Virus record (IMG/VR): IMGVR_UViG_3300042350_000641
Span: 1 to 21,298 of that record
DNA from: a virus
Length of the DNA stretch: 21,298 bases
Strand: one strand, 5' to 3'
The notes below the pieces were generated by a model. The model worked only from the letters and a program-made list of their open reading frames with translations, did not search any database and was not told the origin of the DNA. The position numbers and the translations under genes are program-made. Positions 4,387 through 18,450 of this stretch are shown in pieces. The stretch's first letter is position 1; the number at the start of each line of letters is the position of its first letter.

Positions 4387-5157
4387 ATGCCTCTCGTTAA
4401 GAATCCTAGCAACATAGATAACTTTCTTTTTTCCACTGGAAGAACAAGGGCTTTTCGTGTTGGTAACGCTGGTTCTTATTTTAAGAGTGCTGGAGTTGGA
4501 GCTACTGCTACTGGTGGCAATACTCTTGGATTTAATTTAAGCATAAACGCTGGGTCTGCTGCTGCGGGAACAGCGAAAGTTGGATATTTCGACCCAACCG
4601 CAGCACTAATGACGGCAAGCGCGGGGAAGATTGATTACTCAAAGAGAATTAGATTCTCAATAGGCGGGATGATGTACATTGGCAGCACAAATTCTGTTAT
4701 CAGAATTGTATTTGGTGGAACTGGAAATTCAGTTGACGCACCAGCAGCAGGCGCAAATGGACTAACAATCAAGGGTTTTGGTGCTGAATTTGCCCTGCAA
4801 TCTGGCGTGATACAAGCAAGGTTAATTGGGTTTGATTCAGCATACTTAACTCCGACATCCTACACAACGCTAACAAATGGCTTTGGCCTTGTCGCATCTG
4901 ATAACCGATTCTTTGGTGTTGTTATAGAATCCGATGGTGCTGGAAACATTTATCTTTATGGTGCAGACTCATCTATAAATCCAAACATTAACATTGGGCA
5001 ATCACCTCTTTTAACTCTTACTGGTGGGCCAACCAACGACACCAGTACAAATAGGTTTGGCCCAGAAATTCAATGTTCAAACAATGCGAGCGTAGCACCG
5101 ACAGCCAGCCCTTCAGCAATTTTACAATCAACCTATTACTTAATAGACGTACAATAA
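4387..5157 (+). CDS. Hypothetical beta-rich virion protein, 256 aa
   Basis: I do not recognise a named family. The protein starts MPLVKNPSNIDNFLFSTGRTRAFRVGNAGSYFKS and continues as alternating short strands rich in G, S, N and T, with an aromatic/glycine pattern (GKIDYSKRIRFSIGGMMYIGSTNSVIRIVFGGTGNSV) compatible with a jelly-roll or lectin-like beta sandwich. A carbohydrate-binding or capsid-fibre role would fit its place among the decoration-like genes, but no binding-site residues can be pointed to. Base composition is more AT-rich than the capsid gene. The stop overlaps the start of the lipoprotein gene as TAATG. Confidence 0.66.
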   Translation: MPLVKNPSNIDNFLFSTGRTRAFRVGNAGSYFKSAGVGATATGGNTLGFNLSINAGSAAAGTAKVGYFDPTAALMTASAGKIDYSKRIRFSIGGMMYIGSTNSVIRIVFGGTGNSVDAPAAGANGLTIKGFGAEFALQSGVIQARLIGFDSAYLTPTSYTTLTNGFGLVASDNRFFGVVIESDGAGNIYLYGADSSINPNINIGQSPLLTLTGGPTNDTSTNRFGPEIQCSNNASVAPTASPSAILQSTYYLIDVQ

Positions 5158-5294
5158 TGCCACTCCTCCTCATCACCCTCTTGCTCTGCTCCTGCTCGCC
5201 ACGGCCAGTAGATCATAATAATTCGCTCCCGCGCTACTCGGACATGTCTGCTGCTGCCGATGCAGGAGCAGTAAGTTCTGGTAATGTCAAATGA
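5157..5294 (+). CDS. Small lipoprotein, 45 aa (spanin-like candidate)
   Basis: A longer frame is open from 5073, but the ATG at 5157 overlaps the previous stop (TAATG) and immediately begins a lipoprotein signal peptide: MPLLLITLLLCSC, with lipobox L-C-S-C and Cys13 as the likely lipidated residue. The mature part is about 33 residues (starting CSPRPVDHNNSLPRYSDM). Size and lipid anchor resemble outer-membrane spanin subunits (Rz1 type), which help fuse inner and outer membranes at lysis in Gram-negative hosts. However, proline content is modest and no partner with an N-terminal membrane helix lies beside it, so the spanin reading is tentative. It overlaps the next gene by ATGA. Confidence 0.66.
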   Translation: MPLLLITLLLCSCSPRPVDHNNSLPRYSDMSAAADAGAVSSGNVK

Positions 5295-5569
5295 AACGCA
5301 TCGCCATGTGGCTGACCAATTTGAGTTTGCGTTTCTTAATGACGGGGCAGGAATACGCCTGTTTCAAGGAGGCGTTAAAGTTTGCCGTGGAGAACAACAA
5401 TATGGTCAAGGAGACGAAGTACATTGGCAAGGTAAAGCATCTCCTGTCTGTCAACAGAAGCATAAAGCGGATTGTCGAGGAAGGTCGAGATCGGGACGAG
5501 GTTGTGGATGCCGTTGTCCATCTTGCAGTTTCACTAAGATACTTGGAGGGTAAAGGTCGTGAGTCTTGA
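5291..5569 (+). CDS. Hypothetical helical protein, 92 aa
   Basis: Unknown function. The ATG overlaps the TGA of the lipoprotein gene (ATGA). The product is basic at the N-terminus (MKRIAMWLTNLSLRFLMTGQEY), then an amphipathic helical region (EALKFAVENNNMVKETKYIGKVKHLLSVNRSIKRIVEEG), then RDRDEVVDAVVHLAVSLRYLEGKGRES. The opening 17 residues are moderately hydrophobic but too broken by charge for a confident membrane helix. It lies between a lipoprotein and a membrane protein, so a part in lysis or envelope interaction is possible only by position. The other open frame across the same bases (5284-5553) is a shadow. Confidence 0.62.
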   Translation: MKRIAMWLTNLSLRFLMTGQEYACFKEALKFAVENNNMVKETKYIGKVKHLLSVNRSIKRIVEEGRDRDEVVDAVVHLAVSLRYLEGKGRES

Positions 5570-5807
5570 TGAGGTATACGACCTTAAAGACAGGGTTGCC
5601 AGCGTATCAGAGCGACTTGCCAGGATGGAGGAACGCCAGATGACGCTGATCTCAATGATCGAAAGGTCACTTGCTTTCCACGGGGATGTTGCTAATAGAT
5701 TAGGTGCGCTGGAACACCTGCGGACGAAGGTTCTGGCTGTAGCTGGGCTGATAGGGCTTGCTTGCTCAATGGCCTGGGATGTCCTCAAAAACCGCCTTTC
5801 TAACTAG
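5559..5807 (+). CDS. Coiled-coil protein with C-terminal membrane helix (holin-like candidate)
   Basis: Translation starts at a GTG supported by GGAGGG at 5545-5550 with 8-base spacing; the gene overlaps the previous one by 11 bases. The 82-aa product has a long N-terminal coiled coil (about residues 5-55, VYDLKDRVASVSERLARMEERQMTLISMIE...) and a single C-terminal membrane helix (about 58-74, VLAVAGLIGLACSMAWDVL). This architecture is shared by XhlA-type haemolysin/holin helpers and several other small phage membrane proteins. A holin or holin-accessory role is therefore plausible, but the lysozyme gene lies 11 kb downstream, so the usual holin-lysozyme adjacency is missing. The family name is an inference from architecture. 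Confidence 0.65.
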   Translation: MSLDEVYDLKDRVASVSERLARMEERQMTLISMIERSLAFHGDVANRLGALEHLRTKVLAVAGLIGLACSMAWDVLKNRLSN

Positions 5808-10234: not shown

Positions 10235-10695
10235 TGGGTGGCGGTCCTTCTATTCCTGCACCTCCTCCGCCTCCCAACCCACTTGAGGCGGCTAGGGCTA
10301 ACGATCTTTTCTATCGTTCTTCGCTTGAGACATACATCCAGAAACAGCCAGATGTGGCGGCTCTAGAGCAACGCCTTAGAGAGAAGTATGCTCCTCGCCA
10401 GCGTGAGCTTGAACGCCAGATGTCGGCATTAGATTTGCAAAAATCAGCCCAAGCTGGACTGCAGGTTGAGCGCGAGCTTGGCCCACAGCGTTCGCTAGAG
10501 GCTATGCGCCGTCAATTTGAAATGGCTCCAGAAGCATACGCAACCCAGCGTGGCTTAGGCCAACAAGCAGCCCTACAATTTGCAAGACTTTATGGTCAAT
10601 CTCCGATGGGAGCAGTTCCGAAAGAAGTCCAACAAAGCCAAGGCGTAAACCAAGTCGATTATCTTGGCGGACTTCCAAGGACAGGAATATTTTAA
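10234..10695 (+). CDS. Putative internal virion protein, 153 aa
   Basis: The ATG overlaps the previous stop (TAATG). The protein begins with a Gly/Pro-rich stretch (MGGGPSIPAPPPPPNPLEAARANDLFYRS), a signature start of small podovirus internal or ejection proteins encoded ahead of the large core proteins. The rest is a charged coiled-coil-like helix (EQRLREKYAPRQRELERQMSALDLQKSAQAGLQVERELGPQR) and ends NQVDYLGGLPRTGIF. It has no enzymatic motif. The place before the 604-aa and 1221-aa proteins suggests a part in the internal core or DNA ejection tube. The assignment is by composition and order. Confidence 0.6.
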   Translation: MGGGPSIPAPPPPPNPLEAARANDLFYRSSLETYIQKQPDVAALEQRLREKYAPRQRELERQMSALDLQKSAQAGLQVERELGPQRSLEAMRRQFEMAPEAYATQRGLGQQAALQFARLYGQSPMGAVPKEVQQSQGVNQVDYLGGLPRTGIF

Positions 10696-10696
10696 T

Positions 10697-12511
10697 ATGG
10701 CAGCCAAAAAACCAGTAGTTGATCCGAATCAAACTCTAATTGACAAGTATACTGCGGCTGGATTAACAGACGTAAAGAATACTTATGTAAAGACGGTTGG
10801 GAATAAACAAGTATTTGATACGGCAGCGGCTGACAAGGCTGTTTTTGAAATTCCGAAAATAACAAAAGGAGAGGCCAAGCCAGACAGCTTCACCAAGGCG
10901 GTAACAAATTATTCAAATATTTTATCTCAGGCACAGCAGGTTGGTGTAGCCAATCTAAACGCGAAAGATCAGCAGGCATTAAAAGATGCGGCAAGACTTG
11001 TTCGTGATTTTGATTCAAAAAATTTAAGCCTTGATGCGAAACAAGTAATTGCAAATATTACTGAAGGAACTGATCTTATTGATCAAATCAATGAACAAAG
11101 AAAGAATGTAGAGATACAGCAATATAGGTCAAAAGGGCTAGACGTTGATGGCGTAACAAAGATTAGATTGTCTGGCAAGGAGCGTGAAGCTGCTAGGGGC
11201 AGGCTTGTTACAGAGCAAGACACGTTGCGTAGGCTGGAATCAACAGCCACAAATACAGCACCCAAGCTTGGCGAGTCTCTGACAAGGCTTGGTTTGGCCG
11301 ATATTGGCGTAAACATAGGGTCGGCTGTTGCTGGAACTAAAAAACTTTCAACAGGACTAGAGGCTCTTCGTGGCGAGAATTTCTTTGATGTAAATAAAAG
11401 CGGTCTTGCTGGAAGGCTAAACGTCCAGGTAACGGACGAGCAAATTCTTAACGACATCAATACACAGAGTAGGAATGAATACAAAAGTCTTTATGATATT
11501 GGAACTGCGGCAGTAACCGATCTCCAAAGCCAACTTGATCAAGCCAATAAAATATATGCCGATCTTCCTGCTGGTAGAAGTAAGGATGAGGCCGCGAAAT
11601 CAATTGATGCATTAAAAAGTGATCTTACTCAGGCTCAAAAAGACACGCTTGAAGCCAAGAATCTTTACGAAGGATATAAGCCAATCAGTGGCGAGAAGGC
11701 CACATCCGTTTTGTCGCAAGTCAGGGAATCTCTGCGCCTACCAGAAGAGCGTACTATTGCTCAAATTGAAAGCATTGATCCTACGATTGGCGCGACTGTT
11801 CGCGGTCTCGCCAAGCAGTATCAAGCGATGGCCGAGACTCCGCTTGAGGCAACGACCAGCCCAGAGACAGAAGCCTTTAGGCGTGATGTTGAACAACGGA
11901 TTGCTGGTCAAGTTGCGCTAGGCTCACAGCTTGGTGCGGAAGAGCAGAGGCAGTACCAGCAGGCTGCAAGGGCAGCACAGACTGCCAGAGGCAATATCTT
12001 TGGTGTAGCACCAGCCGTAGAGGAAGCAGTCACAACTGGATTGGCTGGTGAGCAAAGACTCCAGGCTCGCCTTGGTGCAGCCCAAGGATTCTTGGCTTCT
12101 GGTCAAAGTATGTCAGACGCAATTGCGCGTGACGTTGGCTTGCGTAACGCCCTTACTCAATCCCGCCTTGGCGCAGCTCAAGGCTTTATTGCAAGCGGTC
12201 CAACAATGTACAACTTGGCCTCACAGCGTCTTGGACAACAGCAGAATATTCTAAACAATTACTTGGCAGCCTCCGCTCCTCAAACTACTGGTGGCTTCCA
12301 AGCTACACCTTCAGCCGCCAATCCGTATGCCTACGTCAATCCTAACGCTGGATTCATTGGTGCGCAGAATGCGGCTGGGATTTACAATACGTTGGCGGAT
12401 TATTCAGCACAGACGTATGGCGCGCAGGTTGGTGGCATTGCAAGAGGATCTAGCGGTGCCGAACAATTCGGTCAGATTGCTACTGGTCTTAGCAACCTAA
12501 TCAAGATATAA
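10697..12511 (+). CDS. Putative internal virion (ejection) protein, 604 aa
   Basis: The frame is open from a TTG at 10664, but ATG 10697 has CAGGAA at 10682-10687 with 9-base spacing and begins just after the preceding stop, so it is preferred. The product is helix-rich and soluble (MAAKKPVVDPNQTLIDKYTAAGLTDV...). Long coiled-coil candidates include about residues 120-200 and 270-330 (TDLQSQLDQANKIYADLPAGRSKDEAAKSIDALKSDLTQAQ). The C-terminal third is rich in Ala, Gly and Gln and contains a repeated RLGAAQGF(L/I)ASG unit. This is typical of internal core proteins that are ejected with the DNA and span the periplasm. No transglycosylase motif was found. Confidence 0.62.
   Translation: MAAKKPVVDPNQTLIDKYTAAGLTDVKNTYVKTVGNKQVFDTAAADKAVFEIPKITKGEAKPDSFTKAVTNYSNILSQAQQVGVANLNAKDQQALKDAARLVRDFDSKNLSLDAKQVIANITEGTDLIDQINEQRKNVEIQQYRSKGLDVDGVTKIRLSGKEREAARGRLVTEQDTLRRLESTATNTAPKLGESLTRLGLADIGVNIGSAVAGTKKLSTGLEALRGENFFDVNKSGLAGRLNVQVTDEQILNDINTQSRNEYKSLYDIGTAAVTDLQSQLDQANKIYADLPAGRSKDEAAKSIDALKSDLTQAQKDTLEAKNLYEGYKPISGEKATSVLSQVRESLRLPEERTIAQIESIDPTIGATVRGLAKQYQAMAETPLEATTSPETEAFRRDVEQRIAGQVALGSQLGAEEQRQYQQAARAAQTARGNIFGVAPAVEEAVTTGLAGEQRLQARLGAAQGFLASGQSMSDAIARDVGLRNALTQSRLGAAQGFIASGPTMYNLASQRLGQQQNILNNYLAASAPQTTGGFQATPSAANPYAYVNPNAGFIGAQNAAGIYNTLADYSAQTYGAQVGGIARGSSGAEQFGQIATGLSNLIKI
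12067..12195 (+). repeat. Imperfect repeat coding RLGAAQGFxASG
   Basis: Around 12067-12102 and 12163-12195 the gene encodes RLGAAQGFLASG and RLGAAQGFIASG, about 96 bases (32 codons) apart. The DNA differs at several third positions, so it is a duplicated protein module rather than a recent perfect duplication. Confidence 0.7.
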
Positions 12512-12519
12512 GGAGATTT

Positions 12520-13236
12520 ATGGCAGTATTAGATATACCAGCAATGATGGACATGTTTCGGCAGGATGAACTTCAGAAGCAGGCAGTAGCTGAAGCACAG
12601 AGAAAGCAGGCAATGGAAGAGCGTGCAATGGCAATCAAGGAACAGCCAGACGTTGACTTCAGCTTTGAAAAGGGTGGGCTAAAGGTCAAGGGTAAGCTGA
12701 AGGATCTTCCTGCATTAAGCCAAGATCCAGCGTTTGCTCCTTATCTCGCTGGGATTGGTAGCACGATTACGAATGAGCAATCATTGGAGAACGAGGAGGT
12801 TCAGGCTCAAAGGGAATCAATCAATGACAGATTGCGTAAGCTTTCTGCCGAAAGACTTAAACAAGAACTTGAGATTGCAAAAGGCGACACACGCACTGGC
12901 GCAATGGAGCTTGGTCTTGGTCTTGTAGGGATGAAGAAAAGATCCGATGTAATGAAGGAACTTGAGGCCGAACGTGGGGTGCTTCAAGGAAGAATGGCAG
13001 AGCTTGGATTCAACAGGCAAACTGGTCAAATGGAAACCGAGACTCCAGAAGGCGCACCAACAGCTATAGCCCCAAGCGCGCCAGCTATTGCTGCACCAAC
13101 AATAGAACAGCAACCAGCCCAATCACAGACACCAAAGAATTTCAATAGTCTTCAAGAAGCAAGGGCAGCAGGCGTGAAGCCTGGAGAACTTATCTACATC
13201 AACGGAAAGCCAGGACGACTGCAAGCGAGGCAGTAA
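12520..13236 (+). CDS. Putative internal virion protein, 238 aa
   Basis: AAGGAG at 12510-12515 lies 4 bases before the ATG. The N-terminal ~100 residues are charged and helical (MDMFRQDELQKQAVAEAQRKQAMEERAMAIKEQ, later a short G-K-L pattern FSFEKGGLKVKGKLKDLPALS). The middle (residues ~100-165) is a coiled-coil candidate (QRESINDRLRKLSAERLKQELEIAKGD). Residues ~170-205 are a Pro/Ala-rich linker. The last ~30 residues (NFNSLQEARAAGVKPGELIYINGKPGRLQARQ) form a compact module of a type often found at the ends of phage internal proteins, where a short motif after a flexible linker may contact a partner protein. Function is inferred from order and composition. Confidence 0.6.
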   Translation: MAVLDIPAMMDMFRQDELQKQAVAEAQRKQAMEERAMAIKEQPDVDFSFEKGGLKVKGKLKDLPALSQDPAFAPYLAGIGSTITNEQSLENEEVQAQRESINDRLRKLSAERLKQELEIAKGDTRTGAMELGLGLVGMKKRSDVMKELEAERGVLQGRMAELGFNRQTGQMETETPEGAPTAIAPSAPAIAAPTIEQQPAQSQTPKNFNSLQEARAAGVKPGELIYINGKPGRLQARQ

Positions 13237-13239
13237 GCA

Positions 13240-16200
13240 ATGGCTATAGAGCCAGAGCTTGAGTTCGTTCCAGAGCAGGAACAAGATTTAGAGTTCGCTC
13301 CGCTTTCCCCAGAGGAAGCTGGAAACTTAACTAAAGCCGAATATCTTGCATCTGGCGGCAAGCCAGAAGAAGTTATCTCGCCAGAACGCAAGGCTTTACT
13401 AGATCAAGAAACACAGCGTCAGCTACAGGCTGGAGCAACTCCACAGCAAGCATCCATTGAGGCTGGCAAAGCCTTGGATGCGATGGGAGCGATCCGAAGG
13501 CCAGATGGCACGATAGCGGAAGGATACAAGCCAACAGCACAAGCGTTGGCTGAAGGCATTATTGAGACACCAGCAATACCAGCCGTAAAGGAAGCTCAGA
13601 GGTTGGGCATAGAAACAGTATCCTCTGGAACGGATAAAGCTACGGGCGTTGGCTTTGCTATTGGCAGAAACAAGGACGGTAAGGTAGTGCGCTTCGAAGC
13701 TGACAAGGATGGCAATGTTGACTCCTTTGAACTTGAGCCAGAAGAACCCAGCAGGCTAGGTGCGATTGCACGCACTGTTGCAAGCCAAGTAATCCCTGCA
13801 ACTACTGGTGCTGTGGCTGCTGAAACTGCTGCTGCTCTTACTCCTGGTGGCATTGTTCCCAAGTTAGTAACAGGAGCAATTGCTGGCGTGGGTGGATTTA
13901 TTGCAGGCCAAAAGGGACAAGAGGCCGCTGGTAAGGCCTTGCTAGGTCCAGAGCGTATGGCTCGCATCAGCGAAGTCTTACAGCGCGATGTTGAGAAGTA
14001 TCCAATAACCACAACGGCGGCATCTATTCTCACGCCTACTGGCGGTGGGTTGGTTGGATTGGCTAAAGGAGTTCGCGGCGCATTAACTCGCCCAGCCACT
14101 CAAGTTGCTGAAGCTGTTGCTCCTGCTGTTGCTCCAGCGGTTGAGGGTGCCTTGCCGAAGGCAGTTGAGGCTGTTGTTCCAAGGGCAGAGCAAGTAGCTG
14201 GAAAAGCTGGTGTTGCTCCAGTTGAATTGCCAATTGAATTGCCTGCAACACCAAAAGGAATTGGATACAGACAAGCTGGGGTAAAGATGGTGAAAGATCC
14301 ATTTCTTGACAGAGGGGTGCGTGAACAGCTTGCAAAGAGTGAGGATATAAAGTACGCAAAGTTTGGTCAGAAGGCATTGCAAGATGCCTTGGCAAACGAG
14401 TCGGATGACGTTGTAAGGGGAATTTTTGAAAGCGGAACTGCTCCTCAAAAAGTAGTTGCCAATGCCGAGCTAATTAACCGAGCATCAAAACAGAATGATG
14501 TTAAGTCATTGATTGATCTTGCGAAGACAAGAATAAAACTACCTACAGAAGCTGCTCAAACTGTTGCAGCAATGAGGACTCTCCCATCGGCAACCCAAAA
14601 TGGATACCTTGCCACACTAAGCGTTTTTCTTGATAAGAATGGAAGAACCCTTACTCAGCCTCTTCTTGTAGAAGCCAGAAATCTTTTTAAGCTACAAGCC
14701 AGAACTAGGTCAACTTATGAAACTCTTGCTGAAACAGCAAGAAACACGCTGGATGATGTTGACATACAGAAAGCAATTCAGGCAGAGAAAAGATTTGTTG
14801 AGAGTGCATTTAGATTCCAGAACTTTGAGTCAAGACTTGTTCCAAAGAAGTTTTTTGCAGAGACATTGCCAACTGTTATACAAGGCAATCTTCTTGCTCC
14901 CTTGTCATTGGTCACAAATCTTTGGAGTAATGCGGTAAGCTCATTGCCCAGAGCGATGGGAAGACAGGGTGCGTTTATAAGCCAAGAAGTAGCAAGGGCG
15001 TTCAAGAAATCAGTTGGACTTCCAGTTGCAGAGAGAACTGTGTCATCACCAATATCTTTGGCTGGAGCAAGAAGAGTTGGGGAAACAGTTAAAGCATTTG
15101 TTCGTGGAGGCGGAGAAGGATTGGCTGGGTTAAAAAGAGGTATCAGTGCCGAAGGGTTATTGTCTGGAGAGAAAATAAGAGGATTCCAGCCAGCCCAAGC
15201 GTTTAGACAATTTTGGACAGGATCTGGATTGGCTAAACCAGTTCTTAACGGATGGAAAGGATTGGGGCAGGCTGGGCTTGATAGGGCTAGACTGGCCGCC
15301 GAAACGGTGCTTGGCGTTCCGCCAGAAACAATGTTGCGACTACTTCAGCTTGGAGATACTCCATTCAGAAGAATGGCTCAAGCAAGGCTTTTGGCTGAAT
15401 CCGCACAACTTCAAAGAGTATCCAAGATTTCTTCTCTTAATAATGAGCTTTCAAAATTGTTGTCAAAACCCAAAACAACAGCAACTGACTCAGCAAAAAT
15501 ACAAGACATTAGAAATCAAATTGAGTCGATTGGCAAAAGAGAGATTGGAAAAGAAATTTCAGTAGCAACAAGACTTCCATCAGCGGAAGCTTTAGGAAAA
15601 ATAGAACAAGAGGCAGCAGAAGCCGTGTTCCAGCAGGACACGCCGCTATCAAGAGCAGCCTTGAGCGTATCAAATATGTTTGGCCTTGGTAATAGGGTTG
15701 GATTGGCGAGGACTCTTGGGAAGACAATTATCCCATACGCAAAGACACCAGCAAATGTGATCGATGAAATGCTTGATTATTCGCTTCCTGGTTATGCGCT
15801 TGTTACAAAGGGAATACCAGCAATGCAATCCAAGGACGCTAGAGGCGTACACATGGCAATAGGAAAAACATTAACAAGCCTAACCATAGGGGCAGTTGCA
15901 AAAACATTGTCGGACGCTGGGGTGATTGGCGGGTCGGCAGAGGATTCTGAGAAGACTAGGGACATACAATACAAAACACTTCCTCCCCGAACAATAAACC
16001 TAAGCGCGCTTGAGAGATTTGCAGAAGGTGATTCCACAGACCTCCAGCCTGGTGATCGTGTTATGAATCTTGAGAAAATGGGTATTGTTGGCGGGATGCT
16101 TGCAACTTGGAACGAAGCAAGCAAGGCAACAGATAAGGGTGACTTTATAAGTCCAGAGTTTTTAACTGCACTTGTTCCAGAAACCTTGTCATTTGCAATG

Positions 16201-16905
16201 AACCAAAGCTTTCTGAAGGGAACAAACAGCCTTCTTTCGGCTATGCTTGACGGAAAGAGGGATAGAATGGACAAGTGGATTGCCAATTACTTTGGTACAG
16301 TATCTTCAATAGTTTTCCCCAATACGCTTAGTGCTGTGTCAAGGTCTATGAGCGATTCATTGCCAGAGAAAATAAAGATTAAGGATATTGAGGGTGAAGA
16401 TACAACAGAAAGAACGCTTAATTTATTTGGCGAAGTCCTCAAGAGAAAGATTCCTGGCTATGCAGAGGATTTACCAAGAAAGATTGATATATGGGGAAGA
16501 GAAATACCGCAGACACCAGAAGGTGCTGATCCAGTAATGTACAACTTCTTTGATTTCACCAAGTCAAGAGAAGCAACATACGATAAAACCACCTTGGCAA
16601 TTTACAAGCTATTCAAGGAAACTGAAAATGGAGACGTGATACCACCGAAGCCTTTAGAGCAATTTATGATTGGCAACGAAAAGTACAGGCTATCTCCAGA
16701 GTTGTATGAAAAATACTCAAAGATAAGAGGCCGAGCCAACCGCGCTGCTGCTGAAGCATTGCTTGGTGATAGTGGCTTCAAGAGGCTTGGTAGCGAGGAT
16801 AAGGTTAGGGCATTAAAGAGCGCGTATTCTCAAGTTGGCAGTGACGCAAGAAAAGAGTTTTTGATTCGTAATGAGTCAAGAATTAAGCAAGGCCAAAAAC
16901 AATGA
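13240..16905 (+). CDS. Large ejection / polyvalent-like protein, 1221 aa
   Basis: The largest gene in the window. Residues 1-175 are acidic and mixed; about 180-225 are Ala/Gly-rich and hydrophobic (ASQVIPATTGAVAAETAAALTPGG...GAIAGVGGFIAGQKG), a candidate membrane-active segment. From about 340 to 760 the protein is helical, with a motif near 550-566 (NLLAPLSLVTNLWSNAV) that resembles the NLLLSPxTxxrNxxsN motif of large polyvalent proteins of phages and mobile elements. Around 825-845 there is IIPYAKTPANVIDEML, and around 879-899 a second hydrophobic stretch (LTSLTIGAVAKTLSDAGVIGG). Both motifs recur in DNA-ejection and polyvalent proteins. No catalytic motif was seen. It probably enters the host with the DNA and helps form the trans-envelope channel. 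Confidence 0.7.
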   Translation: MAIEPELEFVPEQEQDLEFAPLSPEEAGNLTKAEYLASGGKPEEVISPERKALLDQETQRQLQAGATPQQASIEAGKALDAMGAIRRPDGTIAEGYKPTAQALAEGIIETPAIPAVKEAQRLGIETVSSGTDKATGVGFAIGRNKDGKVVRFEADKDGNVDSFELEPEEPSRLGAIARTVASQVIPATTGAVAAETAAALTPGGIVPKLVTGAIAGVGGFIAGQKGQEAAGKALLGPERMARISEVLQRDVEKYPITTTAASILTPTGGGLVGLAKGVRGALTRPATQVAEAVAPAVAPAVEGALPKAVEAVVPRAEQVAGKAGVAPVELPIELPATPKGIGYRQAGVKMVKDPFLDRGVREQLAKSEDIKYAKFGQKALQDALANESDDVVRGIFESGTAPQKVVANAELINRASKQNDVKSLIDLAKTRIKLPTEAAQTVAAMRTLPSATQNGYLATLSVFLDKNGRTLTQPLLVEARNLFKLQARTRSTYETLAETARNTLDDVDIQKAIQAEKRFVESAFRFQNFESRLVPKKFFAETLPTVIQGNLLAPLSLVTNLWSNAVSSLPRAMGRQGAFISQEVARAFKKSVGLPVAERTVSSPISLAGARRVGETVKAFVRGGGEGLAGLKRGISAEGLLSGEKIRGFQPAQAFRQFWTGSGLAKPVLNGWKGLGQAGLDRARLAAETVLGVPPETMLRLLQLGDTPFRRMAQARLLAESAQLQRVSKISSLNNELSKLLSKPKTTATDSAKIQDIRNQIESIGKREIGKEISVATRLPSAEALGKIEQEAAEAVFQQDTPLSRAALSVSNMFGLGNRVGLARTLGKTIIPYAKTPANVIDEMLDYSLPGYALVTKGIPAMQSKDARGVHMAIGKTLTSLTIGAVAKTLSDAGVIGGSAEDSEKTRDIQYKTLPPRTINLSALERFAEGDSTDLQPGDRVMNLEKMGIVGGMLATWNEASKATDKGDFISPEFLTALVPETLSFAMNQSFLKGTNSLLSAMLDGKRDRMDKWIANYFGTVSSIVFPNTLSAVSRSMSDSLPEKIKIKDIEGEDTTERTLNLFGEVLKRKIPGYAEDLPRKIDIWGREIPQTPEGADPVMYNFFDFTKSREATYDKTTLAIYKLFKETENGDVIPPKPLEQFMIGNEKYRLSPELYEKYSKIRGRANRAAAEALLGDSGFKRLGSEDKVRALKSAYSQVGSDARKEFLIRNESRIKQGQKQ

Positions 16906-17666
16906 AGTTTTCAGTAAACCCATCCAAGGATGTTTCCTTGAGAAACGATATGGTGGCAAGAGAACTTACTGGAACTGGATACGAGCCAGTACCAGAGGAG
17001 ATAAGAAGGATAGCTCCGATTGAGAAGGCTAGAGAATATGCCAAGCAAATGCCACAAGCCACGCAAGCACCAGAACTTGACTTTATAGAGGAACAACAAG
17101 CTATGCAAACAAAACCAGAACAAGATGCACTACAAACAGCAGCGTTAAAGACGATTGATTTTGAGGCAAGGAAGGACAAGCAAGGCAACGTGCAGGTCTA
17201 TAAATTGCCAGCAGGAGATATGGGTGGTAATTTTGAGATTGCTGGTATTAACGACAAATATCATCCAGATGCCTTCAAAAGAATCTCATCGCTCCCAGCG
17301 CAAGAAAGAGCGCAGGCTGCGGCACAATACGTCAAAGAGTACACCAGCCCATTCGTCTCTAAACTCCCCCAAGAAGTCCAGCCATTCGCACAGGATCTCG
17401 CGTTTAATCGAGGGATGGGCGGTGCAACGAAGTACATCCAGCAAGGATTGAACACGCTTGGGCAAAGAGTAGCGGTAGATGGAGGGTTAGGTCCGAAGAC
17501 ATTGCAGGCGATCAACCAGGTTGAGCCAAAGGCGTTAATGCGTGCAGCCAGCCAAGCCCAGCTTGAGGACGAATACCGAATGGCTCAGCGCAACCCAGCC
17601 AGAAAGAAGTTTATTGGTGGACTCGAAAGCAGAATACGAAATAGGCTCGCATTATTTGGAGCTTAA
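16902..17666 (+). CDS. GH108-type lysozyme with peptidoglycan-binding region
   Basis: This 254-aa enzyme likely cleaves the peptidoglycan glycan strand. About residues 1-80 are charged and look disordered. The catalytic part (about 83-150) carries Phe-Glu (FEARKD; E88 is the candidate catalytic acid) followed by AGDMGGNFEIAGINDKYHPDAF, matching the glycoside hydrolase 108 order of Glu, then a D-GG-x-T/YGI segment. The C-terminal part (about 160-215, QDLAFNRGMGGATKYIQQGLN...VDGGLGPKTLQAIN) fits the linked peptidoglycan-binding motif, including DGxxGPKTL. The start overlaps the 1221-aa gene by ATGA. No signal peptide or adjacent holin is present, and the long leader plus linkage to internal protein genes leave open whether it is a lysis enzyme or a virion-carried one. 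Confidence 0.82.
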   Translation: MKFSVNPSKDVSLRNDMVARELTGTGYEPVPEEIRRIAPIEKAREYAKQMPQATQAPELDFIEEQQAMQTKPEQDALQTAALKTIDFEARKDKQGNVQVYKLPAGDMGGNFEIAGINDKYHPDAFKRISSLPAQERAQAAAQYVKEYTSPFVSKLPQEVQPFAQDLAFNRGMGGATKYIQQGLNTLGQRVAVDGGLGPKTLQAINQVEPKALMRAASQAQLEDEYRMAQRNPARKKFIGGLESRIRNRLALFGA

Positions 17667-18028
17667 TCATTATCCTCTTCTTGAGATTCAACCCAAACAG
17701 CGCCTTCATTCATATAGGCAGAACCAGCCTTAATCGTTGTGGAAGTTCCGTAAAAGAAATTCTTAGACTTCGATATGAATGTTTCATCTTTTCCAACAAC
17801 ACTACTTCCAGACTTATAATAAAAACCATCAGTTGAAATTATTGACCTACCAGATGACGATGAATAAGCCATTCCACCATCCTCTGATATTACGCATCCA
17901 CGGCCACATGAGAATCCGTTGCGCTTTAGCACTGCTCCCACAAAATCAGCAGCGTCAGCATCATCATCTTCAGCCATCACCGATGCCATCAGCATCGCCG
18001 TCAGTGTTATCATTGTTATTGCTTTCAT
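17663..18028 (-). CDS. Secreted Gly/Ser repeat protein (candidate moron), 121 aa
   Basis: The only gene on the minus strand. It has a clear Sec signal peptide (MKAITMITLTAMLMASVMA, cleavage after A-M-A near residue 19), then an acidic start (EDDDADAADFVGAVLKRNG), a CGRGC pair that could form a disulphide (C40 and C44), and four or five loose ~14-residue repeats (GGMAYSSSSGRSIIS, TDGFYYKSGSSVVG, KDETFISKSKNFFYG, TSTTIKAGSAYMNE) suggesting a small beta-solenoid. Its stop codon overlaps the lysozyme stop inside a shared TTAA. It faces away from the endonuclease gene, with 38 bases between their start codons. Phage morons are often such lone, opposite-strand genes that change the host envelope, but the function here is unknown. 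Confidence 0.72.
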   Translation of the reverse strand: MKAITMITLTAMLMASVMAEDDDADAADFVGAVLKRNGFSCGRGCVISEDGGMAYSSSSGRSIISTDGFYYKSGSSVVGKDETFISKSKNFFYGTSTTIKAGSAYMNEGAVWVESQEEDND

Positions 18029-18037
18029 GGTGAAAAG

Positions 18038-18064
18038 TCTCTAGCACAAACCGAAAGCCGTCAA
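18038..18064 (-). promoter_or_regulatory. Weak promoter candidate for the minus-strand gene
   Basis: Read on the minus strand, TTGACG (18059-18064) is followed after 15 bases by TAGAGA (18038-18043), preceded by TG at one base distance. The -35 is near consensus but the -10 is poor and the spacing short. It is given only because a lone minus-strand gene needs its own promoter and the intergenic space is just 38 bases. Confidence 0.2.
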
Positions 18065-18066
18065 GC

Positions 18067-18450
18067 ATGAAATTATCTTCACGCCAAGTAGGTGCAGTTG
18101 GGGTAGCTCGCGTTACTGGTGCGTTGCTTCGCTGCGGATACAACGTGCTTACGCCCTACGAGGATTTTGCTGGCTACGATGTGGTGGCAGAGAAGAATAA
18201 TAAGTTCTTCCGCATCCAGGTTAAGACCGCCCAAGCCATAGAGCCTGGTCGAACCAAGTACCGCTTCACTACCAGCAGTGGCAATGGGTTTAACATTCCA
18301 AAGCGCGCAATCAGTGGCGTGGATTATGTTGCCTGCTGGGGCATGAACGATGACCTATTCTGGTTGTTGCCCATTGCCAAGTGCAAAAGCATAACAACTA
18401 AGCTTTGCCCCTCGACAGGTCAGAACTGGCGTGTATTCCAAAGCTTGTGA
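18067..18450 (+). CDS. PD-(D/E)XK endonuclease (PDDEXK_5, intron-endonuclease type)
   Basis: The 127-aa product matches small PD-(D/E)XK nucleases related to the group I intron endonuclease family (such as I-Ssp6803I). It has a GYDVV segment with D38 and then FFRIQVKT with Q51-x-K53; a Q in place of the second acidic residue (QxK) is characteristic of this branch. The early conserved Glu expected in helix 1 (G-E-x) is not visible: the region reads AVGVARVTGALLRCG. No intron is present in the window, so it may be a free-standing nuclease serving DNA processing or recombination, or a homing nuclease. It starts the DNA-metabolism half of the window and overlaps the next gene by GTGA. Confidence 0.72.
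   Translation: MKLSSRQVGAVGVARVTGALLRCGYNVLTPYEDFAGYDVVAEKNNKFFRIQVKTAQAIEPGRTKYRFTTSSGNGFNIPKRAISGVDYVACWGMNDDLFWLLPIAKCKSITTKLCPSTGQNWRVFQSL

Follow-up and report, generated by a model that had tools for sequence, protein, structure and literature searches.

A secreted phage protein whose allelic classes pair with a short motif of a putative virion protein: a candidate self-specific superinfection-exclusion pair

The window studied here, a 21,298-nt stretch of phage DNA (IMG/VR record IMGVR_UViG_3300042350_000641), carries on its minus strand a small gene for a predicted secreted protein whose mature domain is allelic among related phages, and whose allelic class is strongly matched, at the sequence level, to a short motif near the C terminus of a structural-cluster protein, t5, encoded 5.2 kb away. 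We consider it rather likely that the secreted protein is a periplasmic, self-specific superinfection-exclusion protein that recognises the t5 tail of its own allele; the pairing comes from sequence comparison, and exclusion, direct contact and a role of t5 in ejection are inferred. Coordinates are collected in Table 1.

Table 1. Features of the window that bear on the pairing of the secreted protein with t5
Feature	Position	Strand	Basis or remark
t5, 615-aa Ala/Gln-rich protein, structural gene cluster	10664..12511	+	position, composition
Key motif FGQIATG near the t5 C terminus	12467..12487	+	co-varying partner of the mature domain
g250, 238-aa gene	12520..13236	+	
First 40 codons of g250	12520..12639	+	follows the mature domain, with less consistency than the key motif of t5
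giant, 1221-aa protein between both cassettes	13240..16905	+	class not followed at constant giant type
GH108/PG_binding_3 lysozyme	16902..17666	+	convergent neighbour; class not followed within one lysozyme type
Secreted repeat gene, 121 aa	17663..18028	-	dN/dS, codon-position variation, about 100 homologues
Mature domain (class 0), predicted N-terminal helix and beta-solenoid	17666..17971	-	allelic cassette
Sec-type signal peptide	17972..18028	-	predicted cleavage A19|E20
-10 element GAGACT	18036..18041	-	7 nt before the ATG
-35 element TTGACG	18059..18064	-	pattern in 81/81 distinct upstreams
PDDEXK_5 nuclease	18067..18450	+	divergent neighbour; no correlation with class (r about -0.06 to 0.07)

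The secreted gene and its product

Homologues were gathered from IMG/VR through protein search, a DNA pattern and the neighbouring nuclease; one probe led to relatives in 47 loci, and the unique homologous sequences number about 100 overall. A profile search found the gene as a single copy in 78/78 related IMG/VR contigs, always between the lysozyme and the PDDEXK nuclease. Wherever a locus extends far enough upstream of the nuclease, the gene is present on the same strand, its start lying 36-44 nt from the nuclease start; in the loci without it, the DNA ends within a few hundred bases. In the window its stop overlaps that of the convergent lysozyme gene and its start is 38 nt from the divergent nuclease gene. 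The initial annotation had located this ORF exactly and proposed it as a possible moron or superinfection-exclusion protein, naming loss of the frame in related phages as a refuting outcome: the frame is retained in every relative with complete upstream DNA, so the reading as a sporadic moron does not hold, and a single-copy gene that is always present at a fixed place is better called a core gene of its clade. It had also been described as the only minus-strand gene, which is right for the window, where no other is credible, but not for longer relatives, which carry further minus-strand ORFs upstream of the terminase.

The ORF is a real coding gene. Variation is concentrated in third codon positions (17, 13 and 71 variable columns at codon positions 1, 2 and 3), and the mature domain, with dN/dS of 0.01-0.19 in ten classes, is under purifying selection. 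The antisense frames are interrupted by stops in nearly all classes, one class 7 frame being open. An accidental (shadow) ORF or sporadic moron could be suspected from the small size and opposite strand, but this reading is scarcely credible and already refuted: dN/dS, universal retention, the promoter and the matched pairing all speak against it.

The gene has a conserved promoter-like sequence of its own on the opposite strand, as would be expected if the minus strand is transcribed independently, a point raised in the initial annotation. The pattern TTGAC-N16-18-nAnnnT occurs in 81/81 distinct upstreams, against 0.18 expected in shuffles, for a pattern set after viewing the sequences and upstreams many of which are related; diverged upstreams (L028-L030, L270 and L290) keep it too. 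Across upstreams it ends 6-7 nt before the ATG, and a Shine-Dalgarno-like site is absent in 79/81, so the mRNA is probably leaderless or nearly so.

As initially annotated, the product has a signal peptide, a CGRGC pair and a short Gly/Ser/Tyr repeat that recurs four to five times; the repeat unit is about 14 aa long. The signal peptide, MKAITMITLTAMLMASVMA, is followed by EDD at the mature start; it is the only hydrophobic part of the protein, and the mature domain is soluble by sequence. A signal peptide is retained even where the N-terminus has been replaced (L212, L185 and L270). It is of the AxA type in the window and in most classes, and the TAFTC of class 7 is not a canonical lipobox. 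The Cys pair is kept in the window's class, with one Cys missing in L029/L030; CGKNC takes its place in one other class, and the remaining classes have no such pair.

Profile searches of the secreted protein, one of the checks proposed for it, gave no match in Pfam, PHROG, NCBIfam or PADLOC, and sequence searches of the PDB returned weak chance matches only. At the sensitivity used, two scans of 84,980 prokaryote genomes yielded no homologue, and no match was found among cultured phages. Structure prediction, the other proposed check, gave a helix and a beta-solenoid. For the window's protein, AlphaFold2 places a helix and short strands with pLDDT 75 overall and 85-91 over most of residues 31-100; in the model of a class-5 relative, six coils of 14 residues each make up a regular solenoid (pLDDT 85, about 88-95 in the mature part). 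Foldseek with the predicted structure found nothing significant in the PDB or BFVD. Of the earlier idea of a beta-solenoid superinfection-exclusion protein, the fold agrees with the predicted 14-residue solenoid and the exclusion part is favoured by the match to a virion protein allele described below, exclusion as such being our interpretation of that match.

We found no integrase in ten relatives of 33-39 kb, and the phages carrying the secreted gene are therefore probably lytic. The terminase of one relative is nearest to those of Akkermansia phages (35-37% identity), a hint at Verrucomicrobiota hosts. Some features away from the secreted gene deserve mention: (i) In the window, the plus-strand ORF at 5073-5294 resembles a small lipoprotein gene when read from an internal start, MPLLLITLLLCSCSPRP; it is adjoined by ORFs 5291-5569 and 5559-5807, the second with a hydrophobic C-terminal stretch, and the three may form a spanin/holin-like lysis set. 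(ii) The 39-kb relative L222 has several minus-strand ORFs before the terminase, and its segment 9274-10161 resembles, by eye, a C5 DNA methyltransferase gene.

Allelic classes and the t5 key motif

The mature domain splits into at least 11 classes at 60-65% identity, with about 15-60% identity between classes; the signal peptide and promoter are common to them. Among 23 genomes, similarity of the mature domain correlates with that of g250 (0.81), giant (0.74) and lysozyme (0.58), and hardly with that of whole t5 (0.14), g153 (0.06) or the nuclease (0.07); the mature domain thus appears to follow the g250-to-lysozyme module, not g153 or the PDDEXK gene.

Within one lysozyme/giant type (n=19) the picture sharpens. 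The correlation with the mature domain is 0.85 at the t5 C-terminal tail, 0.71-0.78 at residues 1-40 of g250; it does not exceed 0.25 over the remainder of g250 and is about 0 for the t5 core, giant and lysozyme. Here t5 windows were aligned on a QVGA motif; with C-anchored windows, a 60-aa extension present in one class had produced spurious correlations upstream of the tail. This bears on the idea that the secreted protein inhibits the neighbouring lysozyme, for which one could cite the adjoining genes, the periplasmic site and the precedent of T4 Spackle (PMC7677548). Classes 2, 3, 5, 6 and 8 carry almost identical lysozyme, and with r about 0 within that group we regard such an inhibitor as very improbable; as a specificity partner, lysozyme appears largely refuted by covariation within the one lysozyme type.

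Three further features of t5 and g250 were observed: (i) The 60-aa extension (CWVAREVYG..NPKWLQFREWM..), found in t5 of L237, L402 and L350, occurs in L402 without the class it otherwise marks, and has no Pfam or PHROG match. (ii) The N-terminal third of t5 (10664-11278 in the window, and its counterparts in relatives) is extremely variable and unrelated to class (r 0.02-0.04). (iii) Residues 1-40 of g250 follow class while its C-terminal part recombines freely; the start of g250 is possibly a second contact, or possibly hitchhikes with the adjacent t5 tail.

The t5 tail contains the motif F[GA]xIA[TSG]G. In 26 genomes of one lysozyme/giant type, the residue at x, one of T, S, D and Q, corresponds to class without exception. 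The mutual information of the x column, 1.83 bits, equals its full entropy and is joint top among about 1500 columns, tied with another t5-tail column of higher entropy; the maximum is 0.90 for a column of giant and 0.53 for one of lysozyme. Across classes, class fixes a three-residue key in the motif in 84/84 genomes, a count that leaves out L032 with its frameshifted t5. In the reverse direction the link is incomplete, because three class pairs (0 and 8, 5 and 7, 2 and 10) share a key; their mature domains are related, at 35-39% identity. The distal t5 tail (CWVAREVYG type) was considered as the determinant and rejected: L297 and L402 have a distal tail of another class's type, which breaks the link, and keep a motif that agrees with their own mature class, so the motif is the better determinant. 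As a separate impression, the N-terminal helix of the secreted protein contains a conserved motif, FxG[GA]V[YL] (about 17930-17971, minus strand), that resembles the t5 key and perhaps mimics the t5 helix.

By parsimony, the giant tree requires at least 16 changes of class, the lysozyme, g250-C and t5-core trees at least 14 each, and the mature tree just 3 changes of the x residue; the trees were built from mosaic genes and the counts are approximate. With class changing so often against so few changes of x, descent or adjacency linkage does not explain the match.

The class-to-key rule was written down before a further scan for genomes, which was run once; the reading script was revised twice before counting. 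The strict script found the rule obeyed in 14/17 new class-assignable genomes, and inspection of the three misses raised this to 16/17, the first two having been reclassified by eye after the test. One of these, FGAIMSG, carries the predicted key and fails the regular expression; in the other, L391, a wrong ORF had been chosen and the correct frame reads FGAIASG. The third miss is real but partial: L362, at 68% mature identity, has FGQIAGG where A-Q-G was predicted. Five more genomes belong to new classes, and three of them carry the x residue of the nearest class, L389 and L396 being the exceptions.

A model for the pairing and its alternatives

t5 itself has no match in Pfam, PHROG, NCBIfam or among cultured phages; lacking a recognisable homologue, it is labelled an ejection protein, or an internal virion protein, from its position and composition. 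On the reading we prefer, host RNA polymerase would transcribe the secreted gene from its own promoter soon after infection, and the signal peptide would direct the product to export. When a second virion delivers t5 into the envelope, the mature beta-solenoid would recognise the glycine-rich C-terminal segment of a same-allele t5, and genome delivery by siblings and same-key relatives would be blocked. Were the t5 key to change by recombination, the solenoid would have to change too if the phage is to keep excluding its own kind; both cassettes would then come in together, with free recombination in the 5 kb that separates them. That cassettes 5.2 kb apart stay matched is, in our view, explained most simply by selection for a functional match. 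An extension about which we are almost evenly divided, leaning slightly to doubt, is a system of self/non-self recognition among lytic phages: the hypervariable solenoid would read a three-residue code in the C-terminal motif of an entry protein, with at least eight key types and 11 or more receptor alleles that set mutual-exclusion groups and pass between genomes by recombination as matched pairs.

The main rival is a linkage through the host niche, in which the t5 tail and the secreted protein would not touch each other but would both bind one variable factor of the host envelope, host range keeping their alleles together. Host factors mediate the action of HK97 gp15 and T5 Llp, which we count as precedents; moreover, mature similarity shows a weak correlation with similarity of the tail-fibre region (r 0.45, n=31; r 0.34, p 0.047 in a smaller set of n=10). 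These regions are, however, largely unrelated between genomes (mean similarity 0.07-0.08), and three residues of the t5 motif follow class in every one of the genomes counted above, whereas giant and lysozyme, which possibly meet the envelope too, do not. We judge this rival unlikely.

The same matching and secretion would also be expected of a progeny cap, a periplasmic protein that, once released at lysis, attaches to newly made virions at t5 or the tail tip and prevents premature ejection into debris; a promoter of its own opposing the late operon would be unnecessary for that task, we know of no precedent, and we take the idea to be improbable. An immunity protein, shielding the membrane of the producing cell from pore formation by its own t5 tail, would suit the glycine-rich key motif, and the allele-specific pairing resembles that of bacteriocins with their immunity proteins. 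Since t5 is made in the cytoplasm and the secreted protein is exported, we find this quite improbable.

Accounts of superinfection exclusion usually deal with single genes. In about 100 natural genomes compared here, a polymorphic protein of the exclusion type has stayed with its probable virion target, apparently under selection, through at least 14 switches of allele and despite free recombination of the genes that separate them. Covariation of this kind points to interacting residues ahead of experiment. Exclusion groups of uncultured phages would become predictable from sequence, and the way in which lytic phages distinguish self from non-self at entry becomes open to direct test.

Comparison with known exclusion systems

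The window's protein belongs to none of the Spackle, SieA and Ltp families, and shares traits with each. T4 Spackle (Sp) is a small periplasmic protein of a lytic phage, with a cleaved signal, that binds an incoming virion protein; it is a generally well conserved helical bundle, and its target is the gp5 lysozyme (PMC7677548). Small size, a signal peptide and a putative virion protein target are common ground. Unlike Spackle, the window's protein is a hypervariable predicted beta-solenoid with no helical bundle and no Pfam, PHROG or PDB match; its class is independent of lysozyme within one lysozyme type, and specificity appears to follow the C-terminal motif of a non-lysozyme protein.

P22 SieA blocks DNA injection by related short-tailed phages, with escape mutations in the C-terminal regions of ejection proteins; it is a prophage-encoded inner-membrane protein of several divergent types, two of which show no difference in target specificity (PMC10883804). 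The likeness lies in the divergent sequence types and in a putative target at the C terminus of a candidate ejection protein. In our case, in contrast, class and key are matched; no sequence relation to SieA was found, and the window's protein lacks the character of an integral inner-membrane protein.

TP-J34 Ltp is an exported repeat lipoprotein that sits outside the cytoplasmic membrane, blocks DNA injection and targets the tape measure protein; it comes from a lysogen of a Gram-positive host and is encoded in the lysogeny module (PMC3952083). Our protein is likewise repeat-containing and predicted to be exported, but its repeats differ and it has no lipobox Cys at +1. What it would have in common with superinfection-exclusion proteins in general is an envelope site and a virion target, to which its signal peptide and the covarying t5 motif respectively point.
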